Assembly: GCF_000974445.1 (NCBI RefSeq)
Contig: NZ_BBOJ01000023.1
Span: forward strand, 62,001-126,000
DNA length: 64,000 nt
Source of the DNA: Lentzea aerocolonigenes
GTDB lineage: Bacteria > Actinomycetota > Actinomycetes > Mycobacteriales > Pseudonocardiaceae
Direction: 5' to 3'
Positions 44,027 through 60,503 of the stretch are shown piece by piece (within the stretch, counting starts at the first letter, position 1; each line of letters begins with the position of its first letter). A program made the position numbers and the translations under genes. Below the pieces are notes generated by a model, which was given only the letters and a program-made list of their open reading frames with translations, searched no databases and was not told the DNA's origin.

Positions 44027-44046
44027 CCGCACTGAAGGGAGACAGC

Positions 44047-44409: not shown

Positions 44410-44410
44410 G

Positions 44411-44926: not shown

Positions 44927-44935
44927 ACCTGGACG

Positions 44936-45379: not shown

Positions 45380-45389
45380 GCGACCCAAG

Positions 45390-47714
45390 CTACTTCGTCT
45401 TGAACAACTTCACCGTCATCGACGTGCCGCTCTGACGGAGAACCTTCAGGCCGACACCGACCGCCGGCAGCTTCACGCCCGCGTTGGGCTGTTCCGCGTA
45501 CCAGTACTGCTTGGTGTCGTCGAACGTCGGCTGGGCCGCCGCACCGCGGACGTAGGACGCCTTGCCGTTGACGTGCAACGTGAAGGAGTCCGACTTCTGC
45601 AGCCCGAACGGCGCGTCGTAGCCGCCGATCGAAGGAGACCAGCGCTGGCCCTCCAGGTTGTACAGCGGGGCCGGGTTGGCGTCGATCGGCAGGATCAGGC
45701 CCTCACCGGGGTGCTCCCTGACGTTGTTGTCGAGGAAGCTCGTGTTCCACAACGACACCAGCAGGCCGTCCTGGTACGGGAAGTGCTCCACGAAGTCCGG
45801 CTTGTCCGGGAAGCTGAAGCGGTACGGGCCGGTCTTGTTGTACTTGCCGTACGACTCGTAGGTGCGGTTCGACGCGATGTAGAACTGGTCGAACGCCTTG
45901 GTCTCCTTGCCCTCGGTCGTGCGGAAGCCACGGGTGGTCCACACGCCGGTGGTCTCGCCGCCGTCGGTCAGCACCGGTGCGCCGTCGGCGGTCACAGTGA
46001 TCTGGTCGGCGAAGAAGCCCTGCAGCGCAAGGGCACCGTCGGTCCGGTAGGCCAGGCGCAGCTTGGTGTTCTTGCCGGCGTAGGCGTTCAGGTCGACGGT
46101 GAGGTCCACCCACTGGCCACCGGAGGAAGCGCTCAACGCGGGTGCGTCGGCCGAGTCGCGCTGGAACGGTGCCCCGTTCGCGACGCCGTCGAGCTGGGTC
46201 CAGCTGCCGTCGGCGTTGGCCGCTTCGACGTAGAGGTAGTCGTAGTCCGCCTCGATGTCGTAGCGGGCCTTCATCGTGAGCGACGCGGACGTCTTGCCGC
46301 GCAGGTCGAGCGGGACGGTCATGGAGTTGTCGAGGTCGTTGCCCTTCTCGCTCCACCACATCTTGCTGCCCGCGAACGGCGCGCCGTAGTCGAAGGACTT
46401 GGAGATGTCCGGCAGCACGACGACGAGACCCTGGGCCTTCGCGGTGTTGTACTCGTGCGGGCCGAGCTCGAAGACGCGTTCCTGCCCCGCGACGGCGACC
46501 TCGTAGTCGAGCCAGCCGAGCTGGAGCTTGTCCCACGCGGAGAACTCGGGTGCGCGCTCGCCGGGCACCTCTCCGGGTCCGGAAGTCCTGCTCTGACCCA
46601 TGACCGACCACCAGTTGACGCCGTTCGAACCGCCGGCGGTGTCGTAGTGGTCCGGCAGGCCGAGGTCGTGGCCGAACTCGTGCGCGAAGACGCTGACGCC
46701 GCCGTTCTCGGGCTGCACGGTGTAGTCGCCGACCCAGATGCCGGTGTCACCGATCTGCGCGCCGCCGAGCTTGTTGGTGCCGGGGCCGGTCGAGTAGTTC
46801 TTGAACGCGTAACCGCGGTGGCTCCAGAGCGCGTCCTCACCCTGCCACGGGTCGCCGTCGGCCTGGTCACCACCGGCGTGCACGATCTGGAAGTGGTCGA
46901 TGTAGCCGTCGGCCTCGTTGAAGTCGCCGTCGGCGTCGTAGTCGTAGCGGTCCCACTGGTCGTACTCGGCCAGCGCCGCCTTGATCTGCTCGGTGGTCTT
47001 TCCCGCGGCCTTCTGGTCCGCGACCCACTGCGTGACGGCGTCCTTGATGAGCTCACGCGAGTTGTTGCAGATGTTGTCGCCGCACGGGTAACCGTTGCTG
47101 CGGCCGTAGCGGGCCTCGTTGTAGCGGACCTTCACCCAGTCCGTAACGGTGCCGTTGACCGTGTACCTGCCGCTCGACTGCTTGTCGTAGAAGTTCGCGA
47201 CCGAGTTCGCGTCCTTCTTGCGGGAGAAGTACAGGTCCTGGAAGTACTGCCGGCTGAAGTCCGGCTGCCAGATCGTCGTGTTGTCGACCGCCCGGTTCGG
47301 CTCCGGGATCTGGTTGTGCAGCGGGCCGTCGAAGCGCTGCGGGCCGGGCGTGTTCGGGTTGGTGTCGCGGTCCGGGTAGTCCGGGTGCCGCTCGTTGCCG
47401 AACTCCGCGAGGATCACGAAGATCTTGTCGGTCTTCTCGCGCTTCAGCTCGACGTACTGGTCCTTGTTCTGCTTCTTGCCGACCTTCGCGACGGTGCTGC
47501 TGCCGCGCTTCTCCGTCTTCGCCTCACCGGTCAGCACGTCGGCGAGCGCCTGCTGCTTGAGCGCCCGGCGCTTGAGCTCCAGCTCGTGCGGCTGCTCGTC
47601 GGACTGCCGCACCTCCTGGACCTCCGGCTGCGCGGGCGGTGTGGCCGCCGCGGGCGTGACGAGTCCCGCCGTGATGAGCGCGAGTGACGCTGCCCCCGCC
47701 AATGCTCTTCGCAC
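45390..47714 (-). CDS. Secreted M6-family metalloprotease (immune inhibitor A)
   Basis: 774 aa. Signal peptide at about 1-24 (MRRALAGAASLALITAGLVT). A propeptide-like charged region follows, then the M6 catalytic domain from about 95. The zinc motif is H345-E346-x-x-H349-x-x-G-x-x-D355 (FAHEFGHDLGLPDHYD). Other M6 marks are FNEADGYIDHFQIVHAGGDQ, LWSHRGYAFKNY and WWSVMGQSRTSGPGE. The C-terminal third is beta-rich (MAM/lectin-like) with GFFADQITVTADGAPVLTDG. Immune inhibitor A degrades host or environmental proteins. Only 10 nt separate it from the deaminase gene. Confidence 0.93.
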   Translation of the reverse strand: MRRALAGAASLALITAGLVTPAAATPPAQPEVQEVRQSDEQPHELELKRRALKQQALADVLTGEAKTEKRGSSTVAKVGKKQNKDQYVELKREKTDKIFVILAEFGNERHPDYPDRDTNPNTPGPQRFDGPLHNQIPEPNRAVDNTTIWQPDFSRQYFQDLYFSRKKDANSVANFYDKQSSGRYTVNGTVTDWVKVRYNEARYGRSNGYPCGDNICNNSRELIKDAVTQWVADQKAAGKTTEQIKAALAEYDQWDRYDYDADGDFNEADGYIDHFQIVHAGGDQADGDPWQGEDALWSHRGYAFKNYSTGPGTNKLGGAQIGDTGIWVGDYTVQPENGGVSVFAHEFGHDLGLPDHYDTAGGSNGVNWWSVMGQSRTSGPGEVPGERAPEFSAWDKLQLGWLDYEVAVAGQERVFELGPHEYNTAKAQGLVVVLPDISKSFDYGAPFAGSKMWWSEKGNDLDNSMTVPLDLRGKTSASLTMKARYDIEADYDYLYVEAANADGSWTQLDGVANGAPFQRDSADAPALSASSGGQWVDLTVDLNAYAGKNTKLRLAYRTDGALALQGFFADQITVTADGAPVLTDGGETTGVWTTRGFRTTEGKETKAFDQFYIASNRTYESYGKYNKTGPYRFSFPDKPDFVEHFPYQDGLLVSLWNTSFLDNNVREHPGEGLILPIDANPAPLYNLEGQRWSPSIGGYDAPFGLQKSDSFTLHVNGKASYVRGAAAQPTFDDTKQYWYAEQPNAGVKLPAVGVGLKVLRQSGTSMTVKLFKTK

Positions 47715-47838
47715 GTTCGTTCCCCTCTCGGATCCGAGAGCGGACGCTACGTAGCGCGGCGGTGACTCGACACGTCCGAAAGTCGGTTGTCGCCACGACT
47801 GTCCGACTGGACCTTTCGGCGGACGCGGTCAGCCGGGC

Positions 47839-48168
47839 TCACTTCGGCGGCAACGCTTCCACGAACTCGCGCGCCCGCCCGATCCAGTCCTCCAGCACGT
47901 CGTCCTCCGACACCGCGCCCCCGTCCACGATCACCCAGCCCTTCATGGGCCGCCCCGTGAAGTCGAAGACGCGCGCCCCGGGCTGGGCGAGCGCGTCCTC
48001 CTGCGCGTCCGGGCCGATGCGGGCGATCAGGTCGTCGCCGATCACACCCACCAGCATGTTCCCGTTCCAGAGGAACGCGATGCCGCCGAACATCTTCTTC
48101 GCCGTGATGCCGGGCAGTGCGCCCAGCGCCTCGCCCAGGCGGTGTGCCAGGCCCTCGTCGTACGCCAC
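47839..48168 (-). CDS. TfoX N-terminal domain protein
   Basis: 109 aa, a stand-alone TfoX_N fold: YDEGLAHRLGEALGALPG, ITAKKMFGGIAFLWNGNMLV, GVIGDDLIARIGPDAQEDAL and GRPMKGWVIVDGGAVSEDDV. In gammaproteobacteria the domain belongs to the competence regulator Sxy. Here it is a short single-domain form common in actinobacteria with unknown role. The 124-base gap to immune inhibitor A (47715-47838) shows no clear feature. Confidence 0.85.
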   Translation of the reverse strand: MAYDEGLAHRLGEALGALPGITAKKMFGGIAFLWNGNMLVGVIGDDLIARIGPDAQEDALAQPGARVFDFTGRPMKGWVIVDGGAVSEDDVLEDWIGRAREFVEALPPK

Positions 48169-48254
48169 ACGCTGAATACTGTCTCAGCGAGTTGCCAGGC
48201 GCCTCTCAGATTCGTGTGGCTTCATGGACATACAGGACATTCGAGGAGGCCATC

Positions 48255-48527
48255 TTGTTCGGCTTGGTCGGCTTTGTGCTCGGCTGGCTCTTGACGCTGT
48301 TCATCCTGGTGATGATCGGGCGGATGATCGTGGACTGGGCGGTCACGTTCCAGGCGCGCGGTGACTGGGTGTGGAAGGTGCGCCGCGTGACGCACGGCGT
48401 GACCGAGCCGGTGCTGGCGCCGGTGCGCCGGGTGTTGCCGCCGGTGCGGTTCGGCGGGTTCGGGCTGGACCTGGCGTTCACGGTGGTGTTCATCGCGGCG
48501 CTGATCCTGCGGTCGATCGTGTGGTGA
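48255..48527 (+). CDS. YggT-family membrane protein
   Basis: 90 aa from TTG 48255, the only start that fits the strong GAGGAGG at 48243-48249. Two membrane helices (LVGFVLGWLLTLFILVMIGR and LDLAFTVVFIAALILRSIV) flank the conserved cytoplasmic stretch VRRVTHGVTEPVLAPVRRVL. YggT proteins are often near division and cell-wall genes, but here the gene stands alone. It overlaps the convergent FAD oxidase by 38 nt. Confidence 0.85.
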   Translation: MFGLVGFVLGWLLTLFILVMIGRMIVDWAVTFQARGDWVWKVRRVTHGVTEPVLAPVRRVLPPVRFGGFGLDLAFTVVFIAALILRSIVW

Positions 48528-50043
48528 GGACGCCGGGGTTCAGCAACCCGGCGGGGTCCAGCGCGGCCTTGGCTCCGGACAGGGCCGCGGCGAAGACGTC
48601 CGGACGTTGCCGCGTGTACCAGGGCATGTGGTCGCGGCCGACGGCGTGGTGGTGGGTGATGGTGCCGCCCGCCGCCAGCAACGCCTCCGACACGGCGGCC
48701 TTGATCTCGTCCCACTGCGAGGTCAGGCTGCCCCACCGGCCCGGCGCGTAGATGCCGTAGTACGGCGCGGGGCCGTCCGGGTAGACGTGGGTGAAGCGGC
48801 ACGTGACGATGCCGATCCCGCAGACCTCGCGCAACGCCGCGGTCCCGGCCTCCACCACGGCCGCGTGCAGGTCGGCGAACCTGTCCCAGGTGCAGGCCGT
48901 CTCGAACGTCTCGGTGATCATCGCGTGCTGGGCCATGGCGTCGCGTTGGTAGGGCATGCGCAGGAACGACTTCCGCCACTGCTGCGCCGCCCCCTCGACG
49001 ACCTCCCCGTCACCGCACAGCTCCAGCGCCTGCGCCAGCAACCCGTCGACCGGGTGCGACGCGGACTCGAAGGCCAGCACCAGTACTGCCTGGGACGACC
49101 CGGCGTTGAGGAACGCCTCCGCCGGGTCCAGCAGACGGCAGTTCGCCGGGTGCAGCCCGGACTGCGCGATCGCCCGGGTCGCGTCCACGGCACGGTCCCA
49201 GGACGCGAACCGCACCGACGCACCCGCTCGGTGCAGCGGCGGGGACTGCAGGCGCATCCACGCCTCGGTGATCACGCCCAGAGCGCCTTCCGAGCCCAGG
49301 AACAGCCGGTCCGGTGACGGTCCCGCGCCCGAACCGGGCAACCGCCGCGACTCGCTGACCCCCTGTGGCGTCACGACCCTGAGCGACTCGGTCAGGTCGT
49401 CGATGTGCGTGTAGAGCGTGGCGTAGTGGCCGCCGGCGCGGGTCGCGAGCCAGCCGCCGAGGGTCGAGAACTCGAACGACTGCGGGAAGTGCCGCAGCGT
49501 CAACCCGTGCTCCTTGAGCTGCGCCTCCAACGACGGCCCCAGCACGCCCGCCTGGATCCGGGCAGCCCGGCTCGTCGGGTCGACCTCCAGCACCCGGTCC
49601 AGCGCACCCAGATCCAGGGTCACCACCCGGTCCAGCTCGCGCGGCTCAACACCACCGACGACGGAAGTGCCACCACCGAACGGGATCACGGCGACGTCGT
49701 TCGACCCGCACCAGTCGAGCACGTCGACGACGTCCTGCTCGGTGCGCGGGCGGGCGACGGCGTCCGGCAGCGGGCCGACGTCCCCGGCGAGGTTGCGGGT
49801 GACGTCGCGGTAGGCCTGGCCGCGGGCGTGTGTGAGCCGGTCGACAACGTCGGTCGAGTACACCTCGCCCGGCGGCTGGATCCGCGGGGCGGGCACGTCC
49901 AGCGACTTCGGGTCCGGTGGAGCGTGGAACGTCAGGTCCGCGCCCGGCAACACCGCCCGGACCCGGTCGGCCAGCGCACGGCGTTCCTCGGGGGTGACGG
50001 CGTCCTCGACGTTGCCCCAGCCCCACCACGACCTCGTTGCCAT
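48490..50043 (-). CDS. FAD-linked oxidase (alkyldihydroxyacetonephosphate synthase-like)
   Basis: 517 aa from ATG 50043 (MATRSWWGWGN); an ATG at 50055 is also possible. The PCMH-type FAD domain shows PRTEQDVVDVLDWCGSNDVA, VIPFGGGTSVVGGVEP, STLGGWLATRAGGHYATLYT and LFLGSEGALGVITEAWMRL. The C-terminal substrate part contains GIVTCRFTHVYPDGPAPYYG, a HHHAVGRDHMPWY block and KAALDPAGLLNPGVL. The W-x-WG-N start and HHHxxG motif match the bacterial alkyl-DHAP synthase branch. It probably works in ether-lipid or hydroxy-acid oxidation; exact substrate unproven. Confidence 0.88.
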   Translation of the reverse strand: MATRSWWGWGNVEDAVTPEERRALADRVRAVLPGADLTFHAPPDPKSLDVPAPRIQPPGEVYSTDVVDRLTHARGQAYRDVTRNLAGDVGPLPDAVARPRTEQDVVDVLDWCGSNDVAVIPFGGGTSVVGGVEPRELDRVVTLDLGALDRVLEVDPTSRAARIQAGVLGPSLEAQLKEHGLTLRHFPQSFEFSTLGGWLATRAGGHYATLYTHIDDLTESLRVVTPQGVSESRRLPGSGAGPSPDRLFLGSEGALGVITEAWMRLQSPPLHRAGASVRFASWDRAVDATRAIAQSGLHPANCRLLDPAEAFLNAGSSQAVLVLAFESASHPVDGLLAQALELCGDGEVVEGAAQQWRKSFLRMPYQRDAMAQHAMITETFETACTWDRFADLHAAVVEAGTAALREVCGIGIVTCRFTHVYPDGPAPYYGIYAPGRWGSLTSQWDEIKAAVSEALLAAGGTITHHHAVGRDHMPWYTRQRPDVFAAALSGAKAALDPAGLLNPGVLTTRSTAGSAPR

Positions 50044-50136
50044 GCCGAGCAACATAAGCGAAACGCTGTCGTTCTGGAATGACCTGAGTACAACTACTCG
50101 CGCGCCCACGCTCCCCGCAGCGCTACCGTCGGGGCC

Positions 50137-50931
50137 ATGAAGTCCTGGGGGACAGCACTTCTGCTGCTGGTGATGACCGCACTCGGCTGGGCCATGTACG
50201 CCGTGACGAGACCCGACGGCAACAGCGCCACCGACGAGAAGGCCCGCCAGGTCGCGGACCGCATCGCCTACCCGGTCGGCGCGGACGGCAACGCGTACGC
50301 CCGCTCCGCGCTGGTCGGCAACACCGACCCGAAGTACTTCGCGGTCATCGGCATCACGGACAGCCCGGCGAACGACCCGGAGAAGGTCCGCGTGACCCTG
50401 CTGTTCCGCGTGTACGACCCCGGCACGTCGGAGGACCCGCCGTCCTTCCGGTTCTGGGAGCGGAACCCGGTGACCGCCTGCTACCGCGCCGACTTCACCT
50501 ACTACGGCGTCACGAAGGGCGGTCCCGACCGCATCCGCTGTCCCCAGGACGCCAGGCCGATCACCCCGCCACCCGTCCAGCTCAAGGGCGTCCCGACCAC
50601 GTACCCCGAAGCCTTCAAGACGATCCTCGGAGAGCTGCCGCCCACCACCACGAAGGACGACGTGCTCGCCGCGTTGCGCGCGAAGCTGCCGCCGATGCCG
50701 GTCGACGAGCGAACCAAGCTGCCGTGGGCCGAGCCGCGCCTCGACGCCGTCGTCGAGAACGGCGCGATCGGCATCGTCGCCAGCGGCGGCGGTTCGTGCC
50801 TCACCGGCGTGCGGCTCGCCGACGGAACCGTCGCGGCGTGGTACCCGCCGCGCGTGCAGACCCAGCCCGGCGAGTACGGCTGCTCCGGTCAGAGCGCGCT
50901 GCAGCTGTACGGCACGCCGCCACCGAAGTAG
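50137..50931 (+). CDS. Uncharacterised protein with N-terminal membrane anchor
   Basis: 264 aa, unrecognised. One N-terminal helix (WGTALLLLVMTALGWAMYAV) is followed by an outside domain. Visible pieces are KVRVTLLFRVYDPGTSEDPP, a CYRADFTYYGV block, RCPQDARPITPPPVQLKGVP and a C-terminal GSCLTGVRLADGTVAAWYPP. Three or four Cys residues may pair outside the cell. Codon use matches the neighbours. It is convergent with the CHAT gene, 17 nt apart, and I see no link to that cassette. Confidence 0.65.
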   Translation: MKSWGTALLLLVMTALGWAMYAVTRPDGNSATDEKARQVADRIAYPVGADGNAYARSALVGNTDPKYFAVIGITDSPANDPEKVRVTLLFRVYDPGTSEDPPSFRFWERNPVTACYRADFTYYGVTKGGPDRIRCPQDARPITPPPVQLKGVPTTYPEAFKTILGELPPTTTKDDVLAALRAKLPPMPVDERTKLPWAEPRLDAVVENGAIGIVASGGGSCLTGVRLADGTVAAWYPPRVQTQPGEYGCSGQSALQLYGTPPPK

Positions 50932-50948
50932 CGCCTTCGATACAGGCG

Positions 50949-53537
50949 CTAGCCAGCGCCGAAGCACACGAACCCGACGGCGGCCGCGTAGGCCGCGTCG
51001 TCGGTGGCCGCCCGTTGCACGGCGGCAAGAGCCTCGGCGGGCGCCATCCCGGCGGCCAGCTTCTGGTGCAGCTCCACCATCACCGGCGCCGTGCCGTCCG
51101 TCGGCACCGGCACGACAGGTGCGATCAACGTCCGAGTCCCCAAGCCCAGCAACGCGGCCGTGAACCCCATCAGCTCATCGCCGGGACGCACCGCGGACTG
51201 CCCGGTGTCACAAGCTGACAGCACCACCCGCGTGGGAGGCTGCCGCAACCGCTCGATGTCGTAGACGGTCAGCGGGCCGTCCGCCAGTTCCAGGGCGCTG
51301 AACAGCGGGTTGTCGACGCGGAACGAGCCGTGCGCGGCGATGTGCGCGAGAGCGGCACCGTCCATTGCGGACGCCACCGCGCTCACGGTCGCCTCCGCGT
51401 CGACGAGCACGCGGCCCGGCACGTGTCTGCTGATGGCCTTGATCTCGGCGGGCGCCGCGGCCATCCGCGGTCCGGCGGCGAGCACCGCCTCGCCCGGCGC
51501 GTCGGGGACCGACGTGGCGCGCAGCCAGACGGACGCGGACGGGGCGACGGTCACCTGGCGGTCCAGCACCGCCCACGGCAAACCGTTCAGCGCGCCCGTC
51601 GGCACCACGACCAACGGACGCCCGTCGACCCGCGCGGCCAACGGCGCCAGCAAACGTTGCGCCAGAAGCGAAGCGGCGTGCGCGGCGGAAGATCGCGCCA
51701 CGGCGAGGTTCGGCAGCTGCGGTGGCAGCGTCACCAGGCGGTGCAGGGCGAAGCGCAGCAACCGGATCTCGCGGACCACGCCCTCCACCGGGCCGAGCGA
51801 GTGCAGAGAAGAGCGGCCGCCGGCCAGCACGACCGCCATCAGCACGCCGTCGTACTCGACGAACTCGATCAGCGCGGCACTTCCCAGGGCAGCGAACAGC
51901 GACCCGACCGACGGCGGTTTGAACACCGCTCCCCCGCCGGACATCTGCCGGGTGAGGTCGCGGACGCGTTGCTCGGCGCGGACCAGCTTGCCGCGCAGCG
52001 CACCGGCTGGTTTCCCTGCCAGCACTGCGGATTCCACGTCCGCGGCCACCGCGCGCAACGATGCCAGGGCGTCTTCGAGGCGCGGATCGTCGGGCGGTGA
52101 CACGGACTTCATCCGCAACGCGCCCGCTCGCCAGCTCTCGGTCCACGACAGCACGCGAGCGGCGTTCCCGGACGCGACGGCGAGCCGCAGCCCCTCCAGC
52201 GCGAGGGCCTGGCCTTGCACACCGGTCGACGCCCGCAGCTCGGCCGCACCCAGCGACACCCGGTACTCGTCCAGCAGCGAGATGCCGCGACGCAGCGCCG
52301 ACGAGGTGCCGCGAACGTCACCGGAAAGCTTGCGCCGCAACGCCTCCGCGTACCAGCCGCGCACGCGCAGCCCGGCCGGTCCGCGCAGCCTCGCGGCGGC
52401 CGCGAGACCGAACTCCTCAACGGCACGAGCGCGGTGACCGAGGTCGGCGGCGACCAGACCGGCGTCGATGCGGGCCTCCAGCGCGGGCAGCCGCCAGTCC
52501 ATCGCGTCCAGTTCCGCGGCGACCCGCGACAGCGCCAGCCGCAACGGCCGGGTGCGGTCGCCGCGCAGCACGGCGGCGTGCAGTTCGAGGTACCGCGCAC
52601 CGGCCGCCCACAGCAGGCGCTGCTCGCGGCGGAACCGGCGCCGCGCCTCGGCCGCGAAGCCCTGCGCCGCGGCGGGATCGTCGTCCAGCAGCGCGATCCT
52701 GGCGCGGAAGTACAGCGCCTCGGACACGCCCAGCGGGTTCTTCAGCGCCTTCAGCTCGGTGATCGCCCGGTCGGCCGCGGCGCGCGCCTCGTCCAGCAGT
52801 GGCACCGAGACGAGCAGCTCCAGCCGGTTCACCAGCAGCACCGGGCGCATCACGTCGAGCCGGCGGTGGACCTCCTCCGCCTTGTCGAACAACGTCAGCG
52901 CGGCGGGCACGTCACCACCGCGGGTCGCCATGATGCCGGCGTTCCAGTGCACGTCGGCGACCCCGAGCTCCTGGCCGAGCTCCCCGAGCAGGGACGCGGC
53001 CAGCGAGAAGTCCGCCGAAGCCTCACGCATGTTGCCCACGTACGCGCGCACGAGGCCGCGGTTGTTCAGAGCGCGCGCCTCGACCAGTTGGTCGCCAACG
53101 CGGCGAGCACCGGCGATGGCCGCGGTGTAGTCGCGCTCCGCGTCGTCGTGGCGGGTCAGGTAGTGGAAGACGACACCGCGTTGCATCAGGGCGGCGACCG
53201 CGTCGGCACCGGTCAGCTCCGGCATCGCGTCGTCCAGAGCCTTCAGCGCGGCCCGGTGCTTGCCCGTGTAGACGAGCACCCACGCGAGACTCATCTGCGC
53301 CAGAGCGGACAACCGGGGCAACCCGGCGGCGGAGGCGATCCTGATCGACCGGCGCAGGTGCCGCGCCGCGCCGGGGAAGTCGTGCATCTCCCGCAACGCG
53401 AGGCCGATCGCGCGTTCGGCGATCGACCATTCCGCCCGATCTTCCGTCGTGCGGAGCACCGCGCGGGCCATCTCCACGGCCGCACGCGGGTTGCGCTGCC
53501 TGGCCTCCAGCGCGTCCTCCGCAGAAAAGTCCGTCAC
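50949..53537 (-). CDS. TPR-CHAT protease (caspase-like)
   Basis: 862 aa. Residues about 1-430 are TPR-like helical repeats: AERAIGLALREMHDFPGAAR, LMQRGVVFHYLTRHDDAERD, EARALNNRGLVRAYVGNMRE. A linker follows, then a C-terminal CHAT (caspase HetF-associated) peptidase at about 560-862. The catalytic dyad is intact: H736 in ALAHIAAHGSFRVDNP and C776 in TRVVLSACDTGQSAVRPGDE. No signal peptide or membrane helix, so it is cytoplasmic. CHAT-TPR proteins are cysteine proteases used in regulated proteolysis and conflict systems. It is divergent from an intracellular subtilisin 77 nt away, with a 14-bp palindrome between. Confidence 0.92.
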   Translation of the reverse strand: MTDFSAEDALEARQRNPRAAVEMARAVLRTTEDRAEWSIAERAIGLALREMHDFPGAARHLRRSIRIASAAGLPRLSALAQMSLAWVLVYTGKHRAALKALDDAMPELTGADAVAALMQRGVVFHYLTRHDDAERDYTAAIAGARRVGDQLVEARALNNRGLVRAYVGNMREASADFSLAASLLGELGQELGVADVHWNAGIMATRGGDVPAALTLFDKAEEVHRRLDVMRPVLLVNRLELLVSVPLLDEARAAADRAITELKALKNPLGVSEALYFRARIALLDDDPAAAQGFAAEARRRFRREQRLLWAAGARYLELHAAVLRGDRTRPLRLALSRVAAELDAMDWRLPALEARIDAGLVAADLGHRARAVEEFGLAAAARLRGPAGLRVRGWYAEALRRKLSGDVRGTSSALRRGISLLDEYRVSLGAAELRASTGVQGQALALEGLRLAVASGNAARVLSWTESWRAGALRMKSVSPPDDPRLEDALASLRAVAADVESAVLAGKPAGALRGKLVRAEQRVRDLTRQMSGGGAVFKPPSVGSLFAALGSAALIEFVEYDGVLMAVVLAGGRSSLHSLGPVEGVVREIRLLRFALHRLVTLPPQLPNLAVARSSAAHAASLLAQRLLAPLAARVDGRPLVVVPTGALNGLPWAVLDRQVTVAPSASVWLRATSVPDAPGEAVLAAGPRMAAAPAEIKAISRHVPGRVLVDAEATVSAVASAMDGAALAHIAAHGSFRVDNPLFSALELADGPLTVYDIERLRQPPTRVVLSACDTGQSAVRPGDELMGFTAALLGLGTRTLIAPVVPVPTDGTAPVMVELHQKLAAGMAPAEALAAVQRAATDDAAYAAAVGFVCFGAG

Positions 53538-53560
53538 GGCATCACTTTATCGGCTGTGGT

Positions 53561-53574
53561 AGCTTGATCAAGCT
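53561..53574. promoter_or_regulatory. Perfect 14-bp palindrome between CHAT and subtilisin genes
   Basis: AGCTTGATCAAGCT is a perfect inverted repeat in the 77-base divergent gap, close to both start sites. It is well placed to be a shared operator that switches both protease genes together. No regulator that would bind it is identified, apart from the cassette's own sigma-like gene. Confidence 0.55.
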
Positions 53575-53614
53575 CGGTCGGGGTGCCCGTCAACGCTGCT
53601 TTAGTGAGGCCGTG

Positions 53615-54814
53615 GTGTCGAAAACGCCAGAAAGCGCGGAGCTTTACCAAAGAGCTTTTCTGCAGCTCATCGCCGAGGACAAGAACATCAGCTTCCACGC
53701 CGAACGCGGGCGTGAATTCCTTTATCGACCCGGCCAGCTGCTCGTCGCCGTCGAGGATCAACAACGGGTCGTCGAAAAGCTCCGGGAAAACAACATCATC
53801 GCGCGACCCGGCGAGGGTTTGGCCGGACTGGCGCGATTGACGTTGCCGAACAACGCGGAGGACATTCCGCGGATTGTTCGCCTGTTGCGCGACCAGCGGA
53901 ACTGGCCGAACCAGCGGATGCCGCTGGTCCAGCCGCACCACGTGATCGTCGGCCACGGCGGCCTCATCATGGGCAACCCCGGCGACCGGCCCTACCCCGC
54001 CGAGCCGCTCCCCGCGCCCAAGGCGGACGGGAGCCTGCGGGACATCAGGGTCGGCATCATCGACACCGGCATCTCCTCCGGCGCCGACAGCGACCACTCC
54101 GGCTGGTTCGCCGAGCGCTACGCCAAGGAGGCCGACGACGTCGACCCCGCCTACAGCAGCGGCGACTTCTTCGCGTTGCAGGGCGGCCACGGCACGTTCG
54201 TCGCGGGTGTCATCCAGAACGCCGCACCCGGCGTCACGTTCGACCCGGAGATCGCGCTCGACCACAACGGCTTCGGCGACGAGGAACGGCTCTGCCGCAA
54301 GATCACCGAGCTGGGCCAGAAGAAGATCAGCGTGCTGAACCTGTCGCTGGGCTGCTTCACCGAGGACGACGTGGCGTCCGAGCCGTTGCGGCGCACGATC
54401 GAGGCGCTGCCGGACGACATCGTCGTGGTCGCCTCGGCCGGCAACCAGGGCACGCAGCGGCCGAGCTGGCCCGCCGCGCTGTGCGGGGTCACCGCCGTCG
54501 CCGCGGCCGAGCAGAAGCGGGACGGTTCCCTCGTGCCCGCGTTCTACTCGAACTGGGGCCACTGGGTCGACGCGTGCGCGATCGGCAACCGGGCGTCGAC
54601 GTACCTCAAGGGCGAGTGGCAGCTGCCGGGCGAGGCCTCCGCGACGCCGTTCGCGCTGTGGGCGTACTGGTACGGCACCTCGTTCGCCGCTCCCCTGGTC
54701 ACCGGACGGATCGCCGCCACGATGGCCGCTGACGGCATCACCGCAGCTCAGGCGCGTGACAAACTGTTGAGCGGCGCGGAGTTCGCACCCGGCTACGGAG
54801 TTTTTGTCAAATAG
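53615..54814 (+). CDS. Intracellular S8 subtilisin-like serine protease
   Basis: 399 aa from GTG 53615 (VSKTPESAELYQ), with GTGAGG 5 nt upstream. Catalytic triad: D150 in RVGIIDTGISSG, H192 in LQGGHGTFVAGVIQ and S356 in YGTSFAAPLVTGR, with oxyanion N277 in VASAGNQGT. The N-terminal 140 residues form a separate domain (FLYRPGQLLVAVEDQQRVVE) that could be an inhibitory prodomain. There is no signal peptide, unlike most subtilases, so it should act inside the cell. It is the first gene of the plus-strand arm; the sigma-like gene follows 54 nt later. Confidence 0.92.
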   Translation: MSKTPESAELYQRAFLQLIAEDKNISFHAERGREFLYRPGQLLVAVEDQQRVVEKLRENNIIARPGEGLAGLARLTLPNNAEDIPRIVRLLRDQRNWPNQRMPLVQPHHVIVGHGGLIMGNPGDRPYPAEPLPAPKADGSLRDIRVGIIDTGISSGADSDHSGWFAERYAKEADDVDPAYSSGDFFALQGGHGTFVAGVIQNAAPGVTFDPEIALDHNGFGDEERLCRKITELGQKKISVLNLSLGCFTEDDVASEPLRRTIEALPDDIVVVASAGNQGTQRPSWPAALCGVTAVAAAEQKRDGSLVPAFYSNWGHWVDACAIGNRASTYLKGEWQLPGEASATPFALWAYWYGTSFAAPLVTGRIAATMAADGITAAQARDKLLSGAEFAPGYGVFVK

Positions 54815-54868
54815 TTGTATCTGGGAGGCAACCCCGGCCTCCGCCAGTTGTGACCGCAAGGAGTCGAC

Positions 54869-55486
54869 GTGAGCTCAGCCTCCCCGATCGCCGCGCTCGT
54901 GAGCGCGGCGGCCGAGGGCGACCAGTCGGCGTGGAACGAGATCGTGGACCGTTACACGCCCCTGGTGGTGTCGGTGATCTACAAGCACCGGCTGCGCCCG
55001 GCGGACGCCGCCGACGTGAACCAGACGCTGTGGCTGCGGCTCGTGGAGCAGATCGGACGCCTGCGGGAGCCGGAGGCGTTGCCGGGCTGGATCATGACGA
55101 CCACCCGCAACGAGTGCCTGCGCGTGCTGCGCGTGCAGCAGCGGACGCACCTGTACGACCCGCTGTCCGAGTCCGACGCGCTGGAGTCGAAGCAGGTGGA
55201 CGCGGACGTGGAGGCGGACCTGTTGGCCGTGGAGCGGCGGCAGGCGTTGCGGGACGGGTTCGCGGAGCTCACCGACCAGTGCAAACGGTTGCTGACGAAG
55301 CTGATGACCGATCCGCCGCCGAGCTACCAGGTCGTGAGCGAAGAGCTCGCGATGCCGGTCGGCAGCATCGGCCCGACGCGGATCCGCTGCCTGGAGAAGT
55401 TGCGGAAAACCCCTGCGCTCTCAGCGTTCCTGGGATCGCCGGCGACGAGAGGAGGTGTGCTGGGTGCGGCACGACTGGGACAGTGA
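54869..55486 (+). CDS. Sigma-70-family factor linked to the protease cassette
   Basis: 205 aa from GTG 54869, with AAGGAG upstream. Region 2: IAALVSAAAEGDQSAWNEIV, DAADVNQTLWLRLVEQIGRL, EALPGWIMTTTRNECLRVLR. Region 4 is atypical: LTDQCKRLLTKLMTDPPPSY, VVSEELAMPVGSIGPTRIRC. It may direct transcription of this locus. The lack of an obvious anti-sigma gene is notable; the next gene overlaps it by 23 nt and could take that role. Whether it is a working sigma factor is inferred from the family. Confidence 0.88.
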   Translation: MSSASPIAALVSAAAEGDQSAWNEIVDRYTPLVVSVIYKHRLRPADAADVNQTLWLRLVEQIGRLREPEALPGWIMTTTRNECLRVLRVQQRTHLYDPLSESDALESKQVDADVEADLLAVERRQALRDGFAELTDQCKRLLTKLMTDPPPSYQVVSEELAMPVGSIGPTRIRCLEKLRKTPALSAFLGSPATRGGVLGAARLGQ

Positions 55487-55907
55487 CGAGGTACTGCTCG
55501 ACGCCTTGCGCGACGCGTTGAGCACACCTTCCGAAGAAGTACCGCCGGAGTTCGTCGAGGCCGCGAAGGCCGCGTTCACCTGGCGGAACATCGACGAGGA
55601 GCTGCTGCTGATCACGTCGTACGACTCCGTGCTGGACGACACGCTGTTCGCCCGTGCGCGGTCGACGGCGACGGCGCGGCAGCTCGTGTTCGACGCGGAC
55701 GGCGTGATGCTGCAGGTCGAGGTGTCGGCCGCGGGGATCACCGGCCAGCTGATGCCCGCGTCCGGAACGGTGACGCTGGTGACCCCGGACGGGGACCACG
55801 AAACCGCGGCCGTCGACGAACTGGGCACGTTCGTGATGGGCGCGGCACCGCGTGGACCGGTCAAGTTCCGGTTCACCGGCGGTTGCACCGATTGGTTCAT
55901 CCTCTGA
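55464..55907 (+). CDS. Small cassette protein, helical start plus beta-sandwich
   Basis: 147 aa from GTG 55464 (VRHDWDSDEVLLDALRDALS); GAGAGGAGG lies 8 nt upstream, inside the sigma gene. I do not recognise a named family. The first 60 residues are acidic and helical (PEEVPPEFVEAAKAAFTW-like stretch, IDEELLLITSYDS). The second half is beta-rich: TARQLVFDADGVMLQVEVS, GQLMPASGTVTLVTPDGDHE, APRGPVKFRFTGGCTDWFIL. It looks like a carboxypeptidase-regulatory-like or anti-sigma-like partner. The overlap with the sigma gene implies coupled translation and a joint function. Confidence 0.75.
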   Translation: MRHDWDSDEVLLDALRDALSTPSEEVPPEFVEAAKAAFTWRNIDEELLLITSYDSVLDDTLFARARSTATARQLVFDADGVMLQVEVSAAGITGQLMPASGTVTLVTPDGDHETAAVDELGTFVMGAAPRGPVKFRFTGGCTDWFIL

Positions 55908-55928
55908 GCACCATTCGAGTGATGGTGC
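55908..55928 (+). terminator. Hairpin terminator of the protease-sigma operon
   Basis: GCACCAT (55908-55914) pairs perfectly with ATGGTGC (55922-55928) over a 7-nt loop, and begins at the base after the stop codon of the small cassette protein. AATTCATTC follows. Confidence 0.6.
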
Positions 55929-56006
55929 AATTCATTCGTTCGGCCCACATCTGCGGCCAGTAGGGTTGTCGACGCTCAGAATTCGCATCTCGAGAGGTGT
56001 GCGGCT

Positions 56007-56807
56007 GTGGTCGATCGAGTCAGCTGGGTTCCGGAAGGCGTCAACGTCGACGTTCCGAGTTCCGCCCGGATCTACGACTACCTGCTGGGCGGCGGACACA
56101 ACTTCGAAGCGGACCGCGAGACGGCAGAGGCATTGATCAGGGTGCTGCCGGTGCGGGACATGGCGCGCCGCAACCGCGCCTACCTCCGGCGCGTCGTCCT
56201 GGAACTGGTGGCTCTCGGCGTCCGGCAGTTCCTCGACCTCGGGTCGGGCATTCCGACGGTCGGCAACGTGCACGAGGTGGCGCACGAGGTCGCACCCGAC
56301 TCGAAGGTCGTGTACGTCGACTTCGAACCGGTCGCGATCACGCACGCCGAGCTGATGCTGGCGGACGAGCCGAACGTGACGGCGGTGCTGGCCGACCTGC
56401 GCGAGCCGGAGAAGGTCGTGGCGCAGGCCAGGGAGATCCTCGACTTCTCGCAGCCGATCGGGCTTCTCGTCGTCGGAGTCCTTCAGTTCATCCCGGATTC
56501 GGACGATCCATGGGGTGTGCTGTCCCGATACGCGGATTCGCTCTCGTCCGGTTCGTACCTGGCGCTGTCGCACTTCACCGCCGACAGCATGCCCGCGGCC
56601 ATGGCGGCCGGCAGGGAGATCTTCGCGCGCACCGCCGAGCCGATCACCCCGCGCACGCGCGCCCGGGTGACGGACATGCTGGCGGGCCTGGAGATCGTGG
56701 AGCCCGGCATCGTGTTCACGCCCGAGTGGCGGCCGGAGACGCCGGAGGACGTCGGCACGGACCCGTCGAAGGCCAACATCTACGCCGCGGTCGGCCGCAA
56801 ACCCTGA
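56007..56807 (+). CDS. DUF574 (PF04672-type) SAM-dependent methyltransferase
   Basis: 266 aa from GTG 56007, with GAGAGG upstream. The family opening is VPSSARIYDYLLGGGHNFEA. Motif I is VRQFLDLGSGIPTVGNVHEV, followed by VVYVDFEPVAITHAELMLAD and PIGLLVVGVLQFIPDSDDPW. The family is abundant in filamentous actinobacteria and its substrates are largely unknown. It shares the TGATG stop-start with the GGDEF gene, so the two are co-translated. Confidence 0.92.
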   Translation: MVDRVSWVPEGVNVDVPSSARIYDYLLGGGHNFEADRETAEALIRVLPVRDMARRNRAYLRRVVLELVALGVRQFLDLGSGIPTVGNVHEVAHEVAPDSKVVYVDFEPVAITHAELMLADEPNVTAVLADLREPEKVVAQAREILDFSQPIGLLVVGVLQFIPDSDDPWGVLSRYADSLSSGSYLALSHFTADSMPAAMAAGREIFARTAEPITPRTRARVTDMLAGLEIVEPGIVFTPEWRPETPEDVGTDPSKANIYAAVGRKP

Positions 56808-58645
56808 TGGCCACCTCGCCCCTCGCACAGCGGTGGGCGGCCGTTCTGATCGAGAGCGCGTACTCGCCGATGTCGCGGCGGAAGCTGACGCAGCACCTCG
56901 AGGAACACGCCGTCCGGCTGCGTGCTGGGCAGGACGCCCACGTCGTCGGGCAGTGGTTGGTGCGCAAGCGTTTCACCGGCCCGGACTCGTTGCGGCGCAC
57001 ACTGGAGGTGCTGTCCGGGCAGTTCCCGGCCGAGGTGCTCGGCGCGCTGGCGTCCGGTTACGTGCGGGCGACGCGCGACCAGTTGTTCACCGAGCAGGAG
57101 AAGGTCAAGAACTCGCTGCTGAAGACCGTCGAGGACGCGCAGCGCGACCTGCACGACAGCGAGGCCCGGTTCGCCCAGGTCTTCGCGACGACGGCGGTGG
57201 GCATCGCGATCTTCGACCTGCAGGGCTGTGTCGTCGAGGCGAACGAGGCCCTGGCGGGCATCCTCGGCCACGAGGAGATGCCCAAGGAGCTGTTCGCCGA
57301 CGCCGACGCGGTGGCGCTGGCCTCGGCGTGCGCGCGGATGATCGCGTCCTCTGTGGACACCGACCGGCGCGAGTGGGAGCTGACGCGCAACAACGGCGAC
57401 TCCGTGTGGGCGAACGTCGTGCTGTCCGTGCTGCGCGGGTCGGACGGCCTGCCGAAGTTCCACGTCGCCCTGATCGAGGACGTGACCGAGCAGCGGATGC
57501 TCCAGGAGTGGCTGCGGCACCAGTCGCTGACCGACCTGCTGACCGGGCTGCCGAACCGCGCGTCGTTCACGGACAAGCTGGAGTCGGCGCTCGCGACCGG
57601 CGAGCCGCACACGCTGGGCTACCTGGACGTGGACAGCCTGACGATCGTCAACGACGGCCTCGGGTACGTGGCGGGCGACGCCGTGCTGGTCGAGGTCGCG
57701 CGCCGGCTGCGGGTCGTGCTGCCGGACGCGGTGGTGGCGCGGGTCGGCGGCGACGAGTTCGTGGTGCTGATCCGCGGCACACCGGACGTCGCGGCGCTGG
57801 CGGCGATGATCGACGACGAGCTGTCGGAACCGGTGTACCTGGAGGGCGCGGGCGTCGCGGTGTCGACGTCGATCGGTTTCGTGCACGCGCAGGGCCCCGG
57901 CGCGGACCCGACCGCGGTGCTGCGGCGGGCGCACTCGACGTTGCGGCGGGCGGAGAAGGGCGGCAAGAGGCAGTGGGCGATCTACGACCACGAGGCGGAC
58001 CTCGCCGACCGGGAGAGGTTCGCCCGCATCGCGGCGATGCCCGGTGCCTTCGAGAACGGCGAGATCTCCGTGGAGTACTCGCCGGTGTCGTGGGTCTCGG
58101 GCTCGACGGCGTTCCTGGAGGCCTCGCTGCGGTGGGGCGCTTCCCGGCACGACGCGGTGGTGGCCTACGCGGACACGCTGGGCCTGGCGGCTCGCGTCGG
58201 GCAGATGGTGCTGACCGACGCCTGCTCCCGCGGCGAGCCGGTGCTGGTGCGGCTGTCCAGGGACCAGTCGCGGCACCCCGACCTGGCAACGCACGTGCGC
58301 ACCACGTTGCGGGCCGCGGACTTCCCCGCCTCGTCGCTGTTCCTGGCGCTGGACGTGCGCTCGATGCCGGACGGCGAGGAGAACCTGGAGGTCCTGCACG
58401 ACATGGGCGTCCACGTCCTGCTGCACGAGTTCGGCGGCGGGTTCGGCGGTCTGTCCACTGTGGATCGCAGTCCGGTGTGGGGCGTCCGGCTCGCACGGCC
58501 GCCGTCGGAACGGCTGGCACGGCGGGGAATGGCGCTGCTGGTGCCGCTGCTGCGGTCGGCCGGCGTGCACGTGATCGGCGGGCCGGGCGATCCGGACGAG
58601 CTCGAGGCTCTGGGCGTGGACCTGACGGTGGGCCTCCCGCCGTAG
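56807..58645 (+). CDS. PAS-GGDEF diguanylate cyclase with degenerate EAL domain
   Basis: 612 aa. An N-terminal helical region (1-115) is followed by PAS at about 118-230 (EARFAQVFATTAVGIAIFDL), GGDEF at about 235-400 (LTDLLTGLPNRASF, GYLDVDSLTIVNDGLG, ARVGGDEFVVLIRG with GGDEF at 314-318) and a C-terminal EAL-like domain. The cyclase active site is intact, but the inhibitory RxxD site is VLPD, so product inhibition may be lost. The EAL part reads AFLEASLRW instead of EALLRW, and VLLHEFGGGFGGLS replaces the DDFGTGYSS loop. It should not hydrolyse c-di-GMP and may only bind it. Cytoplasmic. Confidence 0.9.
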   Translation: MATSPLAQRWAAVLIESAYSPMSRRKLTQHLEEHAVRLRAGQDAHVVGQWLVRKRFTGPDSLRRTLEVLSGQFPAEVLGALASGYVRATRDQLFTEQEKVKNSLLKTVEDAQRDLHDSEARFAQVFATTAVGIAIFDLQGCVVEANEALAGILGHEEMPKELFADADAVALASACARMIASSVDTDRREWELTRNNGDSVWANVVLSVLRGSDGLPKFHVALIEDVTEQRMLQEWLRHQSLTDLLTGLPNRASFTDKLESALATGEPHTLGYLDVDSLTIVNDGLGYVAGDAVLVEVARRLRVVLPDAVVARVGGDEFVVLIRGTPDVAALAAMIDDELSEPVYLEGAGVAVSTSIGFVHAQGPGADPTAVLRRAHSTLRRAEKGGKRQWAIYDHEADLADRERFARIAAMPGAFENGEISVEYSPVSWVSGSTAFLEASLRWGASRHDAVVAYADTLGLAARVGQMVLTDACSRGEPVLVRLSRDQSRHPDLATHVRTTLRAADFPASSLFLALDVRSMPDGEENLEVLHDMGVHVLLHEFGGGFGGLSTVDRSPVWGVRLARPPSERLARRGMALLVPLLRSAGVHVIGGPGDPDELEALGVDLTVGLPP

Positions 58646-58660
58646 CACGGGAGACCCACC
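58627..58660. terminator. Bidirectional hairpin terminator overlapping the coding end
   Basis: GGTGGGCCTCCCG (58627-58639) pairs with CGGGAGACCCACC (58648-58660) with one mismatch; the GGDEF gene's stop lies in the loop. It separates the convergent GGDEF and snapalysin genes. Confidence 0.7.
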
Positions 58661-58669
58661 GGTGTCACA

Positions 58670-59188
58670 TCAGGCAGCGTCCTCGACCGAGGTGAGGTCG
58701 GCCTTGGCGGTGCCGGCGAAGTTCCGCTCGACACGGGACTTCTCCGCCGCGTTCGGGTTCGGGTTGGTGCACGGGACACCGCCGGTGGAGCCCGACATCA
58801 GGCTGGAGCACGGCCCCGGCTTGATGTCCGGCAGACCCAGGATGTGCCCGATCTCGTGGGCGGCGATGCGGATCTTGTTGTAGCCCTGGTCGACCGCCTG
58901 CTTGCCCATCCAGATCTTGCCGTTGCCGAGCGTGGTCGGCTGAGCCCGCGGCCAGCCGGGGTCGGACACGATGGTGAAGTTCGCACGCGTCCCCGCGGCG
59001 GCCTTCTTGATCTGGACGTTCTTCACGCTGGCGTTCCAGACCTTCACGGCCTCCGTGATGTCCGACTCGTACAGAGCCGCACCCGTGGAGTCGTAGGTGA
59101 TGGTGCGAGCTGCTTGTGCGGTGCCCACGACGCCGAGAGACAGGGCGGCGGCGCTGGCCAGCACAGCAATTGTTTTGCGCAGGAACAC
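58670..59188 (-). CDS. Snapalysin-family secreted zinc metalloprotease
   Basis: 172 aa from GTG 59188 (VFLRKTIAVLASAAALSLGV), with GAGGAG 6 nt upstream. Signal peptide at 1-27 (VGTAQA). The short metzincin-like zinc motif is H111-E112-x-x-H115-x-x-G-x-x-D121 (AAHEIGHILGLPDIKPG), where snapalysins use Asp as third ligand. The Cys pair in PGPCSSLMSG and VPCTNPN probably forms the conserved disulfide near the Met-turn. Snapalysins are small milk-hydrolysing neutral proteases of actinomycetes. The frame stays open upstream to 59275, but the ribosome site and signal peptide favour this start. The gap 59189-59467 holds its promoter and a terminator. Confidence 0.92.
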   Translation of the reverse strand: MFLRKTIAVLASAAALSLGVVGTAQAARTITYDSTGAALYESDITEAVKVWNASVKNVQIKKAAAGTRANFTIVSDPGWPRAQPTTLGNGKIWMGKQAVDQGYNKIRIAAHEIGHILGLPDIKPGPCSSLMSGSTGGVPCTNPNPNAAEKSRVERNFAGTAKADLTSVEDAA

Positions 59189-59416
59189 AGGAATCTCCTC
59201 GCAATGCAGGGTAATTGCTCCCCGACTGTATCGGCGCGGCGTTGGCGCACAAGAAGAGTCAAGTGTCAAAAGCACGGCGCGGTTCAGTGCGTTCGTAGGT
59301 GTTCCCGGGGTCGCGGGGGCGGTGCACGCCTTGCGGCTAGCGGAAACACGACCTACTAGTGATGTTCTCGCCGCGCGGCGCCACGAACAGGTGGCCGCCA
59401 GTCGGAGGAATAACTG

Positions 59417-59454
59417 TTGACGCCCTCCGGATCTGATGGACCGAAGGGCGTCAA
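59417..59454. terminator. Hairpin terminator of the conservon
   Basis: TTGACGCCCT (59417-59426) and AGGGCGTCAA (59445-59454) form a perfect 10-bp stem with short CCGG/CCG pairing inside. It follows the GTPase gene on the minus strand by 14 nt. Confidence 0.75.
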
Positions 59455-59467
59455 CGAGTGCAGCGAA

Positions 59468-60064
59468 TCAGGCGAACGAAGGCTGGCGCAGCGCGTGCTC
59501 CACCAGCGCGATGAGGATCTGCTTCGTCGACTGCCGGTTCCGCGCGTCGCAAGGAATTATCGGCACCGAAGACGGAATCGTCAGCGCGTCCCGCACCTCC
59601 TCGGCCCGGTGGTGCATCAGGCCGTCGAAGCAGTTCACCGCGATCACGTACGGCAGGTCGCGGTCCTCGAAGAAGTCGATGGGCGCGAACGCCTCGTCGA
59701 TCCGGCGCGTGTCGACCAGGACGACGGCACCGATCGCACCGCGGACCAGGTCGTCCCACATGAACCAGAACCGGTGCTGTCCCGGTGTGCCGAACAGGTA
59801 CAGGATCAGGTCCTTGTCCAGCGACACGCGACCGAAGTCCATGGCCACCGTCGTGGTTACCTTGTCTGGCACCGCGGACAGGTCGTCGACTCCGACCGAT
59901 GCCTGGGTCATCACGGCCTCGGTGGTCAGCGGGGTGATCTCGGAGACCGAGCCGACGAACGTCGTCTTGCCGACACCGAACCCGCCCGCGACGACGATCT
60001 TCGCCGACATCGCGTTCAGGTCGACCCCAGGTGACCCCGGACGACCCGGAGCACCGTTGCTCAT
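59468..60064 (-). CDS. cvnD: Conservon small GTPase (CvnD-like)
   Basis: 198 aa. P-loop GGFGVGKTT at 27-35 in IVVAGGFGVGKTTFVGSVSE. G3-like switch LYLFGTPGQHRFWFMWDDLV. The usual N/TKxD guanine motif reads IAVNCFDG, as in other conservon GTPases. It belongs to the MglA-like/Rab-like group that works with a roadblock protein and a sensor kinase at the membrane to control development or metabolism in actinomycetes. The first 18 residues are Gly/Pro rich. The gene lies 16 nt after the roadblock gene. A DUF742 gene is normally between them. Confidence 0.88.
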   Translation of the reverse strand: MSNGAPGRPGSPGVDLNAMSAKIVVAGGFGVGKTTFVGSVSEITPLTTEAVMTQASVGVDDLSAVPDKVTTTVAMDFGRVSLDKDLILYLFGTPGQHRFWFMWDDLVRGAIGAVVLVDTRRIDEAFAPIDFFEDRDLPYVIAVNCFDGLMHHRAEEVRDALTIPSSVPIIPCDARNRQSTKQILIALVEHALRQPSFA

Positions 60065-60080
60065 GGGAACTTCTCTCTAC

Positions 60081-60503
60081 TCAGGCTCTCATGGAAACGT
60101 GCAGCTGGGCACGGATCTCCGGCGTGAGCTGAAGACCGACCCGCTCCACCAGCCGGGTCATCGCGTAACCGATGAGGCCGATGTCGCAGTTGGGTGCGGC
60201 GAGCACGGCGAGGCAGGACCCGTCGCTGATGGACATCAGGAAAAGATAGCCCCGTTCCATCTCGACGACGGTCTGTTTCACCTCACCCGCCTCGAAACAG
60301 CGCGCCGCGCCGAGGTTCAGCGAGACCAGACCCGAGGACACGGCGGCGAGCTGTTCGGCGCGGTCGTGCGGCAGGCGGTCCGACGAAGCGAGCAGCAGGC
60401 CGTCCGCCGAGACGACGATCGCGTGCGCGACACCGGCGACCCTGCTGACGAAGTCCTCGACCAGCCAGCTGAAGTTGTCCAGTTCCTCAGTCGCGGTGGT
60501 CAC
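60081..60503 (-). CDS. cvnB: Roadblock/LC7-domain protein (CvnB-like)
   Basis: 140 aa of one roadblock/LC7 domain: [75 protein letters not shown]-like core and [20 protein letters not shown]. These dimers act as regulators (GAP or scaffold) for the CvnD GTPase. It overlaps the kinase stop by 4 nt. Together with the kinase and GTPase it makes a conservon. Confidence 0.92.

Follow-up and report, generated by a model that had tools for sequence, protein, structure and literature searches.

Two cytoplasmic proteases, an ECF sigma factor and a small partner protein in Lentzea aerocolonigenes: a conserved four-gene set and candidate proteolytic switch

What do two proteases of unrelated chemistry have to do with a sigma factor and a small protein that are encoded right beside them? 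This question is raised by a locus of Lentzea aerocolonigenes, a bacterium with a genome of 10.7 Mb and with Lentzea species as its close relatives. The locus occupies positions 50949 to 55928 of the 64,000-nucleotide stretch analysed here (the window; contig NZ_BBOJ01000023.1 of assembly GCF_000974445.1, positions 62,001 to 126,000) and encodes a TPR-CHAT protease, a subtilisin, an extracytoplasmic function (ECF) sigma factor and a small partner protein. Our comparison of genomes shows that the four genes belong to a single conserved functional set. Many related bacteria keep these genes together, and a joint role as one regulatory switch is therefore very probable. By its ECF domains and gene context, the locus is best filed as a member of the already described ECF54 kind. 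Its features are as follows (aa, amino acids; nt, nucleotides).

50949 to 53537, minus strand: TPR-CHAT caspase-like cysteine protease, 862 aa, GTG start (Pfam CHAT 1e-36, TPR_12 7e-14)
about 50991 to 51674, minus strand: CHAT domain, residues 622-849 of the 862-aa protein
51330 to 51332 and 51210 to 51212, minus strand: CHAT catalytic His736 and Cys776, respectively
53561 to 53574, strand-neutral: 14-nt perfect palindrome in a conserved non-coding block of the divergent promoter region
53615 to 54814, plus strand: cytoplasmic pro-subtilisin (S8), 399 aa, GTG start (Pfam Peptidase_S8 4e-22)
about 53717 to 53953, plus strand: predicted propeptide of the subtilisin, residues 35-113; further parts are a low-confidence linker (118-122) and the triad D150, H192 and S356
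54869 to 55486, plus strand: ECF sigma factor (sigma2 and sigma4), 205 aa (Sigma70_r2 5e-13; NCBIfam sigma70-ECF 2e-18)
55464 to 55907, plus strand: small partner, 147 aa, 3' of the sigma gene and starting within it; the AlphaFold2 model has N-terminal helices (8-51), a conserved low-confidence linker (52-71) and a CarboxypepD_reg-like beta-sandwich (72-147)
55908 to 55928, plus strand: hairpin 3' of the small gene, assessed by folding against shuffles

Conservation and co-occurrence of the four genes

All 24 searched genomes of the genus, the window's own included, carry the CHAT gene at 76-100% identity (split between two frames in the draft G012), and each of the 22 named Lentzea-type loci has the complete set of four. 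Judged from these genomes, the module is therefore core to the genus, in a largely shared chromosomal region. Median identities to the window across the 22 loci are 93% for the CHAT protease, 88% for the subtilisin, 96% for the sigma factor and 92% for the small protein. The module is about as conserved as its nine flanking genes (median identities 57-96%, homologues found in 8 to 21 of the 22 fetched stretches) in this comparison of gene presence and identity; some of the stretches stop at contig edges.

The set reaches well beyond Lentzea. A CHAT-based scan of named genomes, of which the best 80 of 281 relatives were kept, found all four genes in 74 of 80 loci, including representatives of Saccharothrix, Umezawaea, Actinosynnema, Micromonospora, Salinispora, Actinoplanes, Geodermatophilus and Nonomuraea and a metagenome-assembled genome of the Acidimicrobiia. 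The incomplete loci hold CHAT and subtilisin only (L215), stop at a contig edge at the sigma gene (L223, L224), lack the subtilisin (L240) or the sigma factor (L259), or consist of CHAT alone at a contig start (L245). An independent survey of 394 genomes of the class with a profile of the small protein yielded 138 matches, spread over 119 of the genomes. Of these matches, 80, hand-picked and mostly the stronger ones, were examined with their surroundings; they comprise 51 four-gene loci, 21 with sigma and small genes only, three with CHAT, sigma and small genes, two with subtilisin and small genes, two with CHAT, subtilisin and sigma genes (the small gene being below cut-off) and one with CHAT, subtilisin and small genes; some of the incomplete loci lie on short or cut contigs (e.g. 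L111, L119, L127, L156, L159). These 80 loci fall into 21 families, 17 of which include at least one full set, and CHAT and subtilisin occur in seven arrangements among the 51 full sets.

Co-occurrence in whole genomes points in the same direction. With CHAT called at E<=1e-80, 102 of the 394 class genomes have both CHAT and small protein, 17 the small protein only, one CHAT only and 274 neither, which corresponds to a phi of 0.89, a value that ignores shared ancestry like those that follow. The Fisher p-value of this table ignores ancestry as well and is not read as a probability. The neighbouring M6 protease gene, taken as a control, does not co-occur with the set across the class: its phi is 0.10 against the small protein and 0.15 against CHAT. 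The CHAT family is thus found in 103 of 394 genomes, about a quarter. In the sole genome with CHAT only (G301), the sigma match reaches the edge of a contig of 3,320 bases, and the small gene may lie beyond the assembly. The initial annotation of this DNA had been made to depend on a neighbourhood conserved in related genomes; such a neighbourhood is indeed present, and the conserved set that it proposed is borne out by the gap between the phi of 0.89 and the neighbour control.

The incomplete loci are informative in their own right, since comparison shows that the module consists of two halves, the sigma and small genes on the one hand and the CHAT and subtilisin genes on the other. In one family (f34), none of 16 fetched stretches around the sigma-small pair carries CHAT or subtilisin; two of these loci lie on cut contigs, and one (L161) has a 60-bit partial CHAT hit at its edge. 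Such a lone pair was found in 20 genomes, and in 19 of them the CHAT family is represented elsewhere (E<=1e-80), the exception being a 75% complete genome (G453). A closer look at 14 of the 20 found CHAT in 14 of 14 and a divergent subtilisin beside it in 13; in the fourteenth, CHAT lies on a 5.4 kb contig. A different separation is seen in G310 (L105), G074 (L089) and G145 (L091), in which the small gene lies 3' of the subtilisin gene and the sigma gene is found elsewhere, with no small gene adjoining it. The retention of parts after two kinds of separation is the strongest sign of one joint function, and it also shows that either half can carry the small protein along. Other partner genes beside the lone pairs were considered and rejected: the shared neighbours of f34 reflect a common chromosomal region, and the four neighbour representatives scanned are ordinary enzymes or DUF3071 proteins.

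The genome of L. aerocolonigenes itself (G000) holds further loci of this type. Two have CHAT-, sigma-, small- and subtilisin-like genes (L083, C54; L082, C19), with weak subtilisin hits. One is a CHAT-subtilisin pair with no sigma gene in the stretch (L081, C53), and two are sigma-small pairs with no proteases in the stretch (L166, C37; L175, C41); these partial modules mirror the split into two halves.

The proteins, their layout and their described relatives

Both proteases have complete active sites. The catalytic His and Cys are kept in 172 of 175 open reading frames (ORFs) of the CHAT family, the other three being gapped at the site, and the catalytic triad is kept in 172-173 of 173 subtilisins. 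The initial annotation had described two cytoplasmic proteases of unrelated chemistry with intact sites (H736/C776 and D150/H192/S356), and these residues are present and conserved. In the Lentzea indica draft (L200, about 9998-12585) the CHAT gene is broken across two reading frames, perhaps through an assembly error, perhaps through a genuine frameshift.

The predicted structure of the subtilisin combines the intact triad with a propeptide domain, and the top structural matches of the model are unprocessed pro-subtilisins; we therefore predict a zymogen that lacks a signal peptide. Sequence matches include entries named intracellular serine protease (4zoq, 7y6m, 7xr8). The absence of a signal peptide is shared with the intracellular subtilisins of Bacillus. 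These have a short propeptide only, whereas the window's subtilisin bears a full propeptide domain. A second subtilisin gene lies inside the Saccharothrix tamanrassetensis locus (L202, 5836-7020).

The sigma-70-like factor proposed at the outset is an ECF sigma factor with sigma2 and sigma4 regions: besides the Sigma70_r2 match, the NCBIfam ECF model covers residues 21-180, and the profile of the family finds solved ECF sigma factors with a best E of 6e-20. The small protein itself matches no Pfam family. CarboxypepD_reg was found in 10 of 20 members of its family (E<=0.1, best 1e-4), the window copy having no match. The linker falls below a predicted confidence (pLDDT) of 50 at residues 52-56 and 65-68, and residues of this region are conserved among 187 sequences (D54 in 163, S55 in 167, R72 in 172).

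A sigma gene followed by a same-strand gene is the usual layout of sigma/anti-sigma operons, and the small gene of the window lies directly 3' of the sigma gene on the same strand. The same order was found in all neighbouring pairs of the small-protein survey (75 of 75) and of the CHAT scan (76 of 76) and in 28 of 29 pairs among the first 40 loci; the three sets share some genomes. Because the sigma gene directly precedes the small gene and the linker residues are conserved, the earlier suggestion that the small protein is an anti-sigma factor or a protease substrate is plausible. A search for natural fusions of the four proteins gave no clear case; one ORF has sigma and small hits (L076, partial sigma, 61 bits).

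The gene layout agrees with the first reading of the DNA in its four genes, their coordinates, the 77-nt gap between the divergent CHAT and subtilisin genes and the 23-nt overlap of the sigma and small genes. The start of the subtilisin gene was placed at 53615 and not at an in-frame upstream TTG at 53564, because Lentzea sp. NBRC 105346 (L211) has a 2-nt deletion between the two. A simple hydropathy scan found no signal peptide or membrane helix in the four proteins (highest 19-residue mean 1.71); therefore, all four products look cytoplasmic.

The hairpin that was said to close the set exists, its role as a terminator being unproven: it folds with -11.3 kcal/mol, 29 of 200 shuffles fold equally well and no U-run follows. 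The palindrome between the divergent genes belongs to a block that is almost invariant in an alignment of the window and 19 Lentzea-type loci, and it also occurs in some Saccharothrix and Umezawaea loci; no such block was detected in the Micromonospora group. Allowing up to 2 mismatches, the 17-nt context of the palindrome has a single occurrence in the 10.7 Mb genome. We thus rejected the palindrome as a regulon motif of the sigma factor; it is likely a local operator at most, or a pair of promoter elements, and no promoter motif of the sigma factor was established from the palindrome search. Two protease genes flank the module, an M6 (immune inhibitor A-like) gene at 45390-47714 and an M7 gene at 58670-59275. 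Downstream, positions 56007-60064 encode a Methyltransf_19 S-adenosylmethionine-dependent methyltransferase, a PAS-GGDEF-EAL protein and a small GTPase (ATP_bind_1), homologues of which were found in 19, 17 and 20 of the 22 fetched Lentzea-type stretches, respectively.

The neighbourhood as such is already published as an ECF54 context. A review (PMC8999054) lists CHAT, subtilase and carboxypeptidase-domain proteins, proposes proteolytic control and names a sigma factor of Geodermatophilus amargosae as the model of the group. The window likewise combines an ECF sigma factor with a CHAT protein, a subtilase and a CarboxypepD_reg-related protein, and a locus of Geodermatophilus chilensis (L258) holds the same four families. 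Judging by its family, the 'carboxypeptidase' of ECF54 loci is most likely a small, non-enzymatic, CarboxypepD_reg-like protein that is coupled to the sigma factor and a candidate anti-sigma factor. This assignment, the zymogen subtilisin without signal peptide and the module of two halves are what our analysis adds. The primary papers on the group and its gene context are reportedly Huang 2015 and Casas-Pastor 2021. Among the literature matches listed that pair CHAT with sigma factors, subtilisin, anti-sigma factors or defence, none is an experimental study of the set.

A second relative is the type III-E Craspase (Csx29, Csx30 and CASP-sigma), in which the TPR-CHAT protein Csx29 cleaves Csx30, and Csx30 in turn inhibits an ECF sigma factor (PMC10028731). 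Both systems thus combine a TPR-CHAT protease, an ECF sigma factor and a third protein. The match of the window's CHAT protein to the Csx29 model is weak and limited to the catalytic region (residues 732-807, E 0.0014), and its 17.6 bits compare with a curated family cut-off of 300; no match above the cut-off was found in the whole genome of L. aerocolonigenes. The closest solved chains (E 7e-4) are titled 'CHAT domain protein', and we take them to be Csx29. In contrast to Craspase, the window has no repeat array or defence gene nearby and adds the subtilisin zymogen, and among the four solved chains matched by the small-protein profile at E<=5 none is named Csx30. Neither Cas7-11 nor a CRISPR array was found among nine flanking genes and positions 44000-63000 (Cas7-11 was not searched genome-wide). 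By these tests, the locus is not a member of the type III-E CRISPR systems.

A candidate switch and its rivals

How could such a set work? By analogy with Csx29 and Csx30, we suggest a chromosomal, cytoplasmic, four-component proteolytic switch that controls the ECF54-type sigma factor, a reading that we consider about evenly balanced between right and wrong. At rest, the small protein, translated together with the sigma factor, would bind and hold it via its helical N-terminus, and the propeptide would keep the subtilisin in check. On a signal perceived by the TPR repeats, the CHAT cysteine protease would become active and cut the small protein in its conserved flexible linker (residues 52-72) and/or remove the inhibitory propeptide of the subtilisin. 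The subtilisin would then finish the degradation, and the freed sigma factor would reprogramme transcription. Binding, cleavage, signal and regulon are all inferred. The initial annotation had spoken of a controlled protease cascade; given the conserved four-gene set, the best reading now is proteolytic switching of a dedicated sigma factor.

Several observations weigh against this switch. In six stretches without a sigma gene (L105, L156, L169, L259, L089, L091) the small gene lies 3' of the subtilisin gene, and second copies in that position exist in Geodermatophilus chilensis (L258, 12564-13016) and Virgisporangium ochraceum (L263; a weaker copy near 1230, 52 bits). Seventeen genomes have the small protein and no CHAT at the cut-off, although two of them have a sub-cut-off CHAT in the locus (L178, L182). 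In one locus (L092, 11743-12957) the sigma and small genes are convergent, the sole such neighbouring pair seen. The N-terminal part of the small protein, which should do the holding, is modelled with low to middling pLDDT (about 50-80), and structural-fold matches span residues 72-147 alone and leave the helical part uncovered. The minority of loci with the small gene behind the subtilisin gene fits a protease inhibitor or substrate as well as an anti-sigma factor.

Two rivals build on just these loci. CHAT and subtilisin might degrade the sigma factor itself and keep the system off until a signal stops them, with the small protein as adaptor or protease inhibitor. Sigma proteolysis has been proposed in print for ECF54 (PMC8999054, section 3.3), and the small gene behind the subtilisin gene, in the six sigma-less loci and as second copies, would suit it. 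It leaves unexplained why the small gene lies 3' of the sigma gene in nearly all neighbouring pairs and why it stays with the sigma factor and not with the proteases in 16 of 16 f34 loci; two constantly active proteases would also be costly. We regard this course of events as unlikely, though worth keeping in mind. Quite improbable, in our view, is that the small protein mainly serves the subtilisin, as its inhibitor or substrate, comparable to the intracellular proteinase inhibitor of Bacillus, with the sigma factor setting the amount of the set via expression: many unrelated sandwiches score the same or better against its beta-sandwich, and in the main survey the small gene lies 3' of a sigma gene in 75 cases versus 3 for a subtilisin gene. 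Could the four genes share no function at all and be ordinary regulators that adjoin by chance? CHATs and subtilases are indeed common in the genomes of these bacteria. The seven full-set arrangements in one survey across 17 families, the co-retention of unlinked parts and the low phi of the neighbour control make this hardly credible, and the co-occurrence data already contradict a chance neighbourhood.

Defence or programmed cell death, through a protease cascade that kills or arrests the infected cell, had also been put forward for this locus. Caspase-like peptidases appear in proposed conflict systems (PMC7159879, PMC8195603), Csx29 is part of a CRISPR system (PMC10028731), and PADLOC models match the subtilisin (subtilase 5e-12, IetS 5e-7) and the CHAT protein (BovA 8e-4). 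Of the ternary VMAP and EACC2/ECF conflict systems in those accounts, no EAD, STAND, vWA-MoxR or EACC component matched the four proteins in Pfam at E<=1, although Pfam may not have models for all of these, EACC in particular. Beyond CHAT, TPR, subtilase and sigma domains, Pfam gave one sub-threshold helix-turn-helix match. None of the nine flanking genes matches PADLOC at E<=0.001, eight of them belonging to ordinary Pfam families and one to none, and no repeat array was found in 44000-63000, about 7 kb on each side of the module; we thus rejected a defence island. A mobile element was rejected as well: the small protein matches one plasmid record in PLSDB (NZ_LT559118.1), an 11.85 Mb record of Nonomuraea gerenzanensis that by its size is probably a chromosome, and CHAT matches one phage record partially. 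As the locus is core to the genus, with CHAT in every genome searched and the four genes at median identities of 88-96% in every Lentzea-type locus, and as its surroundings showed neither a defence nor a mobile gene, the defence claim is not supported, and we consider it very doubtful.

What would the proposed switch mean? It lays out a complete circuit with candidate substrates. To our knowledge, CHAT proteases are common in these bacteria and few have a known substrate; here, a conserved CHAT family is given defined candidates in the 147-residue partner, the propeptide and the sigma factor. If the mechanism holds true, it would be a case of membrane-free control of a sigma factor by regulated proteolysis, and the CRISPR-linked Csx29 circuit would gain a broader setting. 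More tentatively, the module may be a widespread non-CRISPR counterpart of Craspase, in which a TPR-CHAT protease, triggered by a protein or peptide of its own and not by guide RNA, cuts a soluble cytoplasmic sigma partner and simultaneously unleashes a cytoplasmic pro-subtilisin. If so, it would represent a genuine intracellular protease cascade, from cysteine protease to serine zymogen, that ends in a transcriptional response, and possibly the type of module from which Csx29, Csx30 and their sigma factor were recruited.

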